Shown: in pieces, positions 20,818-24,086 of the stretch
Numbering within the stretch: the first letter of the stretch is position 1
How the letters are laid out: each line of letters begins with the position of its first letter
Assembly (NCBI GenBank): GCA_020248905.1
Contig: JADCGR010000047.1
Location: 1 to 44,765 of the forward strand
Direction of reading: 5' to 3'
Length of the DNA stretch: 44,765 bases
From: Curvibacter sp.
GTDB taxonomy: Bacteria > Pseudomonadota > Gammaproteobacteria > Burkholderiales > Burkholderiaceae_C
Notes under the pieces: model-generated
Databases searched by the model: none
Told to the model about the DNA's origin: nothing
Seen by the model: the letters and a program-made list of their open reading frames with translations, nothing else
Made by a program: the position numbers and the translations under genes

Positions 20818-22156
20818 CGCCGCCATTGACCCGCCTGAACAACTGGCCCTTGCCTGGTGGGCCCTGCAGTTCAGCCCCCGGGTCTGCGTGCTGGAGGAGT
20901 CCGTGCTGCTGGAGGCGCAGGACAGCCTGCGCCTCTTTGGTGGCCAGCGCGCGCTGCTGCAGCACGTGCGTGTGCAAGCTGCCGGACAAGGCGCCAGCGC
21001 CCTCGCGGCTGCGCCTACCGCGCTGGCTGCTGTCGCGCTCTTGCGTCGCCTTTCGGCTGCCGAAGTTGCGACGGACACGGCCACTGCATCACCCGCTCCT
21101 GCACCTTTGCCAGCCCAAGCCTGTGGCCCCGCCGCGCTGCAGCGCACCCTGGACGCCCTGCCCATCGCGGTGCTGAGCGCGACGCATCCTCACGTCCCTA
21201 CGCTGCAGCGTCTAGGCTGCCGCACCCTGGGGCAGTTGCGCGCGATGCCGCGTGGCGGCCTGTCGCGTCGCTTCGGAGGCGCCCTACTGGAAGCACTGGA
21301 CCGTGCCTACGGCCTGCGTCCCGATGCATTCAAGTGGATCGCACTGCCCGAAACCTTCAGCGCCCGGCTCGAATTCGCGGGCCGTATCGAACTGGCCGAG
21401 GGCCTGCTCTTTGGTGCGCGCCGACTGCTCGCTCAGCTGGGCACCTGGTTGCTGGCGCGGCAGCGCGGCGTGGTGGCCCTCACCCTGCACTGGGAGCACG
21501 ATCTTGTGCGCCGGGGGGATGCTGGGAATGGCAGTCTGACGGTACGCACCGCGCAAGCCACGCGCGATATGGCGCATCTCACCCGTCTGCTGGCCGAGCA
21601 TCTGGCGCGCGTGACGCTGCTTGCCCCCGTGGTCGCCATCCGGCTCGAAGCGCCGCAGACCGCTGCGTTGGCGACGCAGTCCATGAGCCTGCTGCCCGAA
21701 GACCAGCGCGAAGGCGAAACCCTGCAGCAGTTCGTCGAGCGTGTCTCCGCGCGCCTGGGCCCTGACCGTGTGCTGCGCGGGCAATTGATCGCCGATCACC
21801 GGCCGCAGCACATGCAACGCTGGCAGCCTGCCACCATCGCGGTCGTATCCAGACGCAAAAAATCCAAGCTGCCTGCGCAGCTGCTGCTGCAGCCGCCCTG
21901 GCTGCTGCGCGAGCCGCTGCGCCTGACCGTCCAGGACGAGCGGCCCATCTACCAGGGGTCACTCACCCTGCTGGCTGGCCCCGAGCGGCTGGAGTCGGGC
22001 TGGTGGAGTCTGCTCCCGGGCGCAGAAATGGAAGGCCAGGAGCTAGCCCTGCGTGACTACTACGTTGCCCGCAGCCCGCACGCAGGGCTGCTCTGGGTCT
22101 ACCGGCGCCGCAGTGCAGGGGAGCCGGGGTGGTACCTGCAAGGTCTTTACGGATGA
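20759..22156 (+). CDS. imuB: ImuB, inactive Y-family polymerase homologue
   Basis: 465 residues if the ATG at 20759 is used (MLMLWIAL); an ATG at 20765 is equally likely. It resembles Y-family polymerases in the finger and little-finger regions (WALQFSPRVCVLEESVLLEAQDSLRLFGG, read in two parts; LQRLGCRTLGQLRAMPRGGLSRRFG, read in two parts). It lacks the catalytic acidic motifs, as expected for ImuB, which acts as an adaptor linking ImuA and DnaE2 to the beta clamp. The N-terminus is short: the stretch that in longer relatives contains the first palm strands is almost absent. No dnaE2 follows; instead the sequence runs into a decayed region. Confidence 0.87.
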   Translation: MLMLWIALRAPASASSPPHDAAIDPPEQLALAWWALQFSPRVCVLEESVLLEAQDSLRLFGGQRALLQHVRVQAAGQGASALAAAPTALAAVALLRRLSAAEVATDTATASPAPAPLPAQACGPAALQRTLDALPIAVLSATHPHVPTLQRLGCRTLGQLRAMPRGGLSRRFGGALLEALDRAYGLRPDAFKWIALPETFSARLEFAGRIELAEGLLFGARRLLAQLGTWLLARQRGVVALTLHWEHDLVRRGDAGNGSLTVRTAQATRDMAHLTRLLAEHLARVTLLAPVVAIRLEAPQTAALATQSMSLLPEDQREGETLQQFVERVSARLGPDRVLRGQLIADHRPQHMQRWQPATIAVVSRRKKSKLPAQLLLQPPWLLREPLRLTVQDERPIYQGSLTLLAGPERLESGWWSLLPGAEMEGQELALRDYYVARSPHAGLLWVYRRRSAGEPGWYLQGLYG

Positions 22157-22254
22157 CGCAGAGGATCGATACGGCGTCGGTTCGAGTCCTGTCCAGAATT
22201 ATTGCGAGCAGGTAAATTTTGACCAGACTGTCCACAATATATGGAAAGCCCATC

Positions 22255-22350
22255 TTGAGTGAAGCCACGTGGCAATTGCAGGACGCCAAGAGCAATTTCA
22301 GCCAGCTCGTCAAACAGGCCGCAGCGGGTGAGGCGTAGGTCGTCACCATG
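22255..22350 (+). pseudogene. 5' part of split phd/yefM antitoxin gene
   Basis: From a TTG at 22255 the reading is SEATWQLQDAKSNFSQLVKQ, then AAAGEA-stop-VVTM, the N-terminal DNA-binding part of a Phd/YefM antitoxin. An in-frame TAG at 22336-22338 replaces what is normally a sense codon. At CCATG (22346-22350) the sequence switches to transposase DNA. Joining this piece to 23516-23674 restores an 84-residue antitoxin frame (with the TAG), so both were one gene. The preceding gap (22157-22254) holds no gene I can support. Confidence 0.85.
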
Positions 22351-23130
22351 CGGTACACCAGATCAGCGCCGCGCCGTTTTAGGCGGTCCATGGCAAAGGG
22401 TGGGCGGGCGCAGTAGCGCAGCAGGCGCTCCAGGCCTGCACGGTCGGCGGCTTCGATGCGCACCCCCGCATCCACTGAAAACCCGCCGCCGTGTTGGCTG
22501 GAAGCGCCGCGCTCGCTCATCTCTTTGGCGTCATGCGCCCCCAGGTGGCCGCGTGCCACAAAGGCGCGCAGCCGGCGCTTGCGCACGCTGTTCTGTACTT
22601 GGGTCTGCATCTGGGCAAGGGCGACCTCGTCGATCTGGGCGGGGTGAAACGTGATCGGCTGCACACCGGCGGGCAGCGGCTCAAACACCCCATCGACCAC
22701 GCACACATGGAAATGCACATGCGCGTTCAGGTTGGAACCGAACCGGTGAATAAAGGCAACTGCGCCCAGGCGCAGGCTGACGGGGTCACACTGTGCAGCA
22801 CTGGGGCAATGGGCCTGCAGGCTTTGCTGCACCGCGCGCAAGAAAATGTGCAGCGCGGCATTGAGTGCGCCTTTGTCACGCTGCAGGTAGTAGCGAATGC
22901 GCTTCGGGACAGACAGCACCCACTGGCGCACCGGCAGGCGCGGAAACACGTGGTCGCACAGGTGGGCGGCTGCCTCGGCCATGCGGCGTGTGTTGCATGA
23001 GGGGCAGACGCCACGGCCTTTGCAGGAGAAGGCCACCAAAAAGTCGTCTCCACAGTCGTCGCAGCGAACGCGGGCAAAGCCGTGGGCGAAGATGCCGCAC
23101 TCCAGGTATTTGCGGAACGCTTTCTCTACT
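22347..23130 (-). pseudogene. IS91 transposase, N-terminal and central part (piece A)
   Basis: Starting just after a stop (TAA), the reading is VEKAFRKYLECGIFAHGFARVRC, with the zinc-finger region CDDCGDDFLVAFSCKGRGVCPSCNTRR (read in two parts) and the HUH motif region LNAHVHFHVCVVDGVFE. It ends at ERLLRYCARPPFAMDRLKRRGADLVYRM. The first few dozen residues are missing. Beyond 22347 the frame runs on into phd and imuB DNA read backwards and is meaningless there. Confidence 0.85.
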
Positions 23131-23199
23131 TAAGGAGCTGGCGTGTGGTGGTCGCCCTGCCCGTCGAGCTGTCCGACACTTGCCAACTCTAGCCAGGTC

Positions 23200-23256
23200 T
23201 CAAACAACCCCCCAAAGAACATAGGCCGACAGGCCATACAGAATGCCGCTGGACAT
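23200..23256 (-). pseudogene. 5' fragment resembling rarD (EamA transporter)
   Basis: Eighteen codons (MSSGILYGLSAYVLWGVV) match the typical beginning of RarD-type EamA permeases, normally ...AYVLWGLFPLYFK. The fragment then ends in a stop after a G-run. It is fused in frame behind the truncated transposase. It may be flanking DNA captured by one-ended IS91 transposition. It is very short, so the assignment is tentative. Confidence 0.5.
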
Positions 23257-23514
23257 GCAATTGGACGGGTGGTCAGGAACGATAAAGGATGGCGGCGCGC
23301 CGGCAAGAGCCTTCGGTGGATGGGGACAGTGCGCCATAGCCGTCACCGCCGCCTGCAGCGGCGAGTTCGGGGCCAGCACGCCGTAGTACCTGTGCCGGTG
23401 CGTGCGCGGTGGCGGCACCAGTTGGGCGATGCGGTGGATCAGCTCCAGCGGCGTGAGCACCAGTTCACCCGAATACTTGTCGGACTGCATAGGCTCTGTG
23501 TGGCCTTTGCCCAT
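23257..23514 (-). pseudogene. IS91 transposase, C-terminal part (piece B)
   Basis: Minus-strand reading MGKGHTEPMQSDKYSGELVLTPLELIHRIAQLVPPPRTHRHRYYGVLAPNSPLQAAVTAMA (in full-length relatives this follows directly on piece A). After TAMA the usual conserved C-terminus (YLWAVLIARIYE-like) is absent, and the frame passes into the 5' flank of a rarD-like gene. Confidence 0.82.
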
Positions 23515-23674
23515 GCATGGCAAGCCTACCGCTGTAGTGGTCTCGGCCCAGCAATACGCGCGGCTCACCCGTCGCAAAGGGCGCCTGTCCAGCGCTGTGC
23601 TGCAACCCGATCTGGCCATTGACCAGCTCGACCTCGCGCGCAGCCGCGACACCGGGCGTGATATCCCGCTATGA
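23511..23674 (+). pseudogene. 3' part of split phd/yefM antitoxin gene
   Basis: Starting at CCATG-CAT the reading is HGKPTAVVVSAQQYARLTRR...ARSRDTGRDIPL, the C-terminal half of a Phd/YefM antitoxin (toxin-binding part). The stop TGA overlaps the ATG of the PIN toxin by 4 bp, the usual toxin-antitoxin arrangement. The N-terminal half lies at 22255-22350, beyond the inserted segment. Confidence 0.87.
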
Positions 23675-23947
23675 AGTGGCTACTCGACACCTGCGTTCTG
23701 TCCGAATACGCCCGGCGCGAGCCAAACCAGCACGTGATCGACTGGCTGGACGCCCAGGACGAAGACAGCCTGTACCTGAGCGTCATCACGCTGGGTGAAA
23801 CCGAGAAGGGCATCTTGAAGCTGCGCGCCACCGAGGCGCAGCGCGCCCATGATGGCCATGGCTCAATGCCATGGCCTGACCATCGTCAAGCGCAACGAGC
23901 GCGACTTCCTGCCTTACCCGGTGCTCTTCAATCCCTGGCAAGCCTAG
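23671..23947 (+). pseudogene. VapC-like PIN-domain toxin, internally deleted and frameshifted
   Basis: The N-terminus MKWLLDTCVLSEYARREPN carries the first PIN acidic residue (D6), and LGETEKGILKL has the second (E43). After QRAH (about 23849) the frame shifts and jumps to MAMAQCHGLTIVKRNERDFLPYPVLFNPWQA in frame +1, the normal PIN C-terminus. Some 45-50 residues between, including the third catalytic aspartate region, are missing. The ribonuclease must be inactive. With the antitoxin also broken, the whole module is dead. Confidence 0.87.
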
Positions 23948-24008
23948 CGCCAAGCAGGGCTTGTTGGGCACTGCAGGCCAGCCGGTCTGACAAAGGCCGC
24001 ATCTAGTT

Positions 24009-24025
24009 CGCGACAAATTGTCCCA
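24009..24025. promoter_or_regulatory. Putative operator upstream of the FDH accessory operon
   Basis: CGCGACAAATTGTCCCA matches 14 of 17 positions of the perfect palindrome TGCGACAAGTTGTCGCA found at 31583-31599 before the structural formate dehydrogenase operon. It is centred about 70 bp upstream of the DUF3305 ATG. I infer it is a binding site for the response regulator encoded at 30063-31445. Confidence 0.6.
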
Positions 24026-24086
24026 ACTTGCCCCGGTAGTTCCCCTCTTATGCAGGGCCCTGCCTATCCGCTACAGTGGCGGCCTC

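Follow-up and report, generated by a model that had tools for sequence, protein, structure and literature searches.

A circularly permuted fragment of an IS91-family transposase gene splits a phd antitoxin gene of Curvibacter sp.

A phd antitoxin gene of Curvibacter sp. was split by a 1165-bp insert that carried a fragment of an IS91-family transposase gene in rotated, that is circularly permuted, order. The rotation was real and exact. The insert looks like a decayed scar and resembles a trace of DNA repair rather than a working element; no present function of it was indicated. It was probably left by a circle of the fragment that was opened once and taken up where phd had suffered a staggered break, with duplication of 3–6 bp. 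All coordinates are positions in the window, the 44,765-nucleotide stretch of contig JADCGR010000047.1 that was analysed, and the insert unit is 22346–23510.

The boundaries of the insert were read directly from the sequence. The 5′ part of phd (22252–22350, plus strand) stopped with ...GTCGTCACCATG at 22350, and the gene restarted at 23513 (ATG CAT GGC) in its 3′ part (23512–23674, plus strand). The insert was flanked by a direct repeat of 6 bp, CCATGC, with the left copy at 22346–22351 and the right copy at 23511–23516; the original prediction had given it as 5 bp (CCATG). The interior lay on the minus strand and consisted of an N-terminal and middle part of the transposase (22350–23204), a 125-bp segment unlike the insertion sequence (IS) between the truncated transposase ends (23205–23329), and a C-terminal part of the transposase (23330–23511). 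Read in the transposase sense, the C-terminal part came before the N-terminal part.

The first transposase piece carried a Zn_Tnp_IS91 domain (PF14319) above its cut-off. Y2_Tnp (PF04986), also above its cut-off, matched in two stretches whose order was swapped in the DNA, with profile positions 1–139 on the first piece and 146–181 of 183 on the C-terminal part. The fragment therefore had the content of the IS91 family, a Y2 transposase with a zinc-binding domain. NF033538 and NF052416 matched as well, below their whole-protein cut-offs. Compared with the 518-codon ISPps1-group protein BDT74225.1 of strain OS-4 (L005), the fragment corresponded to about codons 29–378, falling about 28 codons short at the N-terminal end and about 140 at the C-terminal end, and both IS ends were missing. 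An in-frame TAA was present in the fragment at 23130–23132.

For the join test, the 1165-bp unit was doubled head to tail and aligned to relatives. A single alignment crossed the join, from about unit position 985 to about position 859 of the next lap, in R. antarcticus (L004), strain OS-4, Hydrogenophaga (L006) and several family loci; the remaining compared loci carried only parts of the transposase unit. On the doubled unit, the alignments spanned 985–2024 for L004 and for a Rhodoferax sp. MAG contig (L088), and 985–2021 for L005 and L006. Within the unit, positions 5–859 and 985–1165 were homologous to relatives, corresponding to the first piece and the C-terminal part, respectively. The best full-length relative, L088, was linear, encoded a transposase in an open frame of 570 amino acids and was 82% identical in DNA to the doubled unit across 1079 alignment columns; the join was free of gaps. 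Since relatives aligned gaplessly through the join, the order was exactly permuted and continuous across it. The original prediction of a circularly permuted transposase lodged in phd was thereby borne out, and L088 provided the linear, unpermuted relative that it had called for. Among the loci from the genus, plasmid, family and genome_contigs searches, no relative had the permuted order, only linear or partial copies. Rhodoferax antarcticus contained several full and internally deleted transposase copies, some of them a few kilobases apart (L091, L092, L098, L100, L105).

The two phd parts were searched separately against PF02604 and, as expected of half genes, each scored below the cut-off of 29.8 bits (5′ part, E 8.5e-5, 22.7 bits; 3′ part, E 7.2e-5, 22.9 bits). 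With tblastn, the 3′ part matched annotated Phd/YefM antitoxins, many adjoining vapC, among the 30 listed of 129 plasmid records. The halves joined in frame. In all four phd relatives compared (L107–L110), a single residue lay between T and H/N-G-K/R-P, so that the ATG of the window fills one native phd codon; on the phd side, this tests the repeat by the spacing of one codon only, in four relatives. With this spacing and the gapless transposase join, the earlier claim that both genes rejoin in frame held. The left boundary of the insert fell at or beside the centre of a perfect 10-bp palindrome, CCATGCATGG, which the phd target forms when its two sides are put together (22346–22350 with 23516–23520). 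Downstream of phd lay a remnant of a PIN-domain (VapC-type) gene (23671–24006, plus strand; PF01850, 24.6 bits versus a cut-off of 23.6), whose in-frame match was confined to the first half of the profile (positions 2–55 of 120). Because of this half-profile remnant and an in-frame TAG in the 5′ part of phd (22336–22338), the toxin–antitoxin locus looks dead, judging from its sequence.

In the 25 other genomes of the genus, no match longer than 50 bases was found inside the phd–PIN part, and among 399 family genomes the 3′ half of phd matched only its own genome and one other. A sister strain with an uninterrupted phd, which the original prediction had named as support, was not found in these two collections, and the junction and empty-site patterns each had 0 matches in viral contigs. 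The stretch comprising phd, insert and PIN remnant (22157–24017) was a synteny break relative to the genus: DNA matches ended near 22154–22162, at the end of the upstream gene, and restarted near 24009–24049. In one genus genome (G024), about 19 kb of a single contig separated the two flanking matches.

The 125-bp segment would have closed the ring between the truncated transposase ends, and no alignment of transposase relatives entered it beyond about 9 bases. In the 399 family genomes, with two candidate places scored in each, two short matches were found besides its own copy. The part adjoining the N-terminal end of the transposase (23210–23256, minus strand) was 85% identical over 47 bp, starting from the ATG of a 294-amino-acid open reading frame in L140 (E 1.9e-8 for one genome), and this reading frame passed TIGR00688 for rarD (239.8 bits versus a cut-off of 130.15). 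The transposase–rarD fusion described earlier is thereby reduced to about the first 16 codons of rarD, an EamA-family transporter gene. The second match comprised 34 bp (23286–23319) and was 88% identical to L141 (E 2.3e-5 for one genome, 399 searched); this match may be fortuitous, or else it may reflect a closure made as a patchwork. Plasmids had no match to the closure, and any match at other sites of its own genome was at most 25 bases long. The closure peptide had no match in NCBIfam and Pfam, and its one tblastn match (E 7) was named rarD. The L140 protein found no rarD in the own genome, in a search run without a positive control. Since neither the closure nor rarD had a match elsewhere in the own genome, the inserted DNA looks foreign to it. 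On a Hydrogenophaga plasmid (L006:875–4124), the annotated gene that follows an ISPps1-group transposase on its downstream side encodes a DMT-family transporter; the putative ring here is likewise closed by the start of a transporter gene.

The genome, a 65-contig draft that was 99.87% complete, contained the insert in a single copy, with no Y2_Tnp match outside it and no donor. Matches to the insert were found in three of the 26 genomes of the genus, its own included, the other two over only 131 and 39 bases. At E 1e-20 or better, 50 of the 399 family genomes matched, again including its own (two candidates scored per genome). Matches were also found in 626 plasmid records (30 of them listed), none in a band above 90% identity, and a scan of genome_contigs yielded 18 loci. 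Neither a donor locus nor a circle was found in the own genome, the 26 genus genomes, the 399 family genomes, the plasmids or the 18 genome_contigs loci.

The codon at the join was informative for the origin of the repeat. The de-permuted window read CGC-ATG-GGC at this point, and the join codon was TGC or TGT in 33 of 33 spanning rows, drawn from 105 loci, with ATG in none; own copies and rows not crossing the join were excluded. A recount with all 141 loci, one set of which was compared at the join only, gave TGC or TGT in 36 of 37 spanning rows, TGG in the one from a degenerate copy (L124) and ATG again in none, where the 37 rows represented 34 loci and 28 distinct sequences, many of the rows being near-identical copies and therefore not independent. 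With a shorter query, 27 of 28 rows had TGC or TGT, and the remaining row was again L124. Over 346 codons compared between L088 and the window, 208 were identical, 125 differed at one position, 10 at two and 3 at all three. The join codon was one of these three, and one of two among 334 for L004 and for L091; triple differences were commoner in more distant relatives (10 of 329 codons for L006, 12 of 328 for L009). Because divergence from L088 was mostly silent (93 codons silent, 45 replacing, 208 the same), a triple change at the join Cys codon before insertion is unlikely. As no relative had ATG at the join, the CAT/ATG at both ends of the insert most likely came from phd, and on this comparison the repeat is most likely a target duplication of phd rather than shared microhomology. 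The duplication was at minimum 3 bp (CAT) and at maximum 6 bp (CCATGC), a range that arises because the outer bases are identical in both partners, and an equal number of bases would be missing from the circle. Such a balance is either coincidental or hints at an exchange in register that was then corrected to match phd.

The simplest source of the exact permutation would be a 1165-bp circle opened inside its own transposase, as originally proposed. In the reading that we favour, the ISPps1-group transposase fragment and 125 bp of other DNA would have formed a ring about 1.16 kb in size, with a single opening made at the Cys codon after Tyr-Arg of the transposase. The opened circle would have entered phd at the palindrome CCATGCATGG; between 3 bp (CAT) and 6 bp (CCATGC) of phd would have been duplicated, and the circle would have given up as many bases. 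Opening of a circle would leave an insert of one lap with its ends 3–6 bp apart on the ring, which is a coincidence under other routes. The joining may have proceeded by capture at a staggered break or by strand exchange in register, with correction to the sequence of phd. Simple break capture has to assume a further coincidence, since gain and loss of bases balance. The favoured reading is also weakened in that the best full-length relative was only 82% identical; the true donor lineage is unsampled, and its join codon could be ATG. A search for Ku (PF02735) in the own genome had no match, while the same search was positive in one of 14 control genomes (Bacillus subtilis), so that Ku-dependent end joining is unavailable there now. 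As a tentative and rather doubtful generalization, bacteria without Ku might insert small non-transposon circles by in-register staggered exchange, with the overlap converted to the target at both ends. If true, such exchange would leave permuted inserts with 3–6 bp repeats that mimic the target duplications of transposons. The coupling-sequence scheme of a Tn916-like recombinase predicts one overlap per partner, not both from the target, unless repaired.

According to the original prediction, the crossover ran through a sequence common to both partners; with the repeat corrected to 6 bp, the circle would already have borne CCATGC and recombined once with phd through this microhomology. Both genes do rejoin in frame through the repeat, the unsampled donor lineage leaves room for such a circle, and the TGG of the degenerate L124 is two changes away from ATG. 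Yet ATG was absent from all 33 and all 37 relative rows, and the join was among the three of 346 codons that differed from L088 at all three positions. A microhomology crossover would need a rare triple change at the join, or two changes if the donor was like L124, whereas target duplication accounts for the codon directly; we regard the crossover as unlikely. Still less likely is a route with no circle, in which replication switched templates from phd to the transposase at the join codon, proceeded toward its start, then to rarD-bearing DNA, to the transposase end, back to the join and finally to phd. Template switching commonly leaves short repeats at the edges, and a closure that may be a patchwork, with a rarD start and possibly another gene start, would suit it; a halt within 3–6 bp of the starting point in the transposase is left unexplained.

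We think it very improbable that the insert was excised from transposase fragments arrayed head to tail instead of deriving from a circle. Several copies do lie close together in Rhodoferax antarcticus (L091), but none of the loci compared had copies in head-to-tail order with the 125-bp segment between them, and only chance would make the excised piece exactly one unit long. An assembly or library artefact would be conceivable in a 65-contig draft and is highly improbable here: the insert occurred once in the assembly, there was no other Y2 transposase match to mislead the assembler, and an artefact is not expected to produce a phd that is continuous but for an insert with a short repeat at each end. 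Least credible of all is an ordinary IS91/ISCR rolling-circle insertion. The interior is indeed an IS91-family transposase, but the insert ended in internal transposase codons, where homology stopped near codons 29 and 378 of the L005 protein, as foreseen in the claim that integration had not followed normal IS91 insertion. It also has a direct repeat, which IS91 is described as not making in the excerpted account (PMC5714925). IS91 insertion chemistry, contradicted by the absent IS ends and the 6-bp repeat, was rejected. The related suggestion that IS91 rolling-circle transposition had made the circle failed as well, since both IS ends were missing and 125 bp of other DNA would close the ring.

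The finding is a real and well-resolved scar, in one case and with no function shown. Permuted inserts of this kind would be a fossil signature of DNA circles. Doubling the insert, aligning across the join and comparing the join codon can separate target duplication from shared microhomology, and the same join test is applicable to many bacterial genomes, where it could give the frequency with which small circles re-enter chromosomes.

The scar resembles IS91/ISCR elements in that a transposase gene of this kind is the source of the inserted fragment. In the excerpted description, IS91 has ori91 as its start and ter91 as its end and generates no direct repeats (PMC5714925), whereas here IS ends were absent, a direct repeat was present and the gene was truncated. 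Human segmental duplications with an order changed from A-B to B-A have been attributed to circular intermediates in the part of the source consulted (PMC7450558); they are large and eukaryotic and both copies are known, whereas no donor was found here. No bacterial precedent for a permuted insertion from a circle was found in the literature, in which subscription journals were thinly covered, so that its absence is unproven. In the available portion of a study of wine yeasts, a Zygosaccharomyces bailii segment was inserted in circularly permuted forms, which were attributed to extrachromosomal circular DNA, with little or no similarity at the breakpoints and 2–3 bases of microhomology in four of six (PMC3053389). 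According to the same portion, that segment is eukaryotic, 17 kb long, thought to replicate as a circle and inserted several times independently (PMC3053389), in contrast to a single insertion of 1.2 kb with a short target duplication in a bacterium. The likeness lies in a permuted order that is explained by a circle (PMC3053389, same portion).
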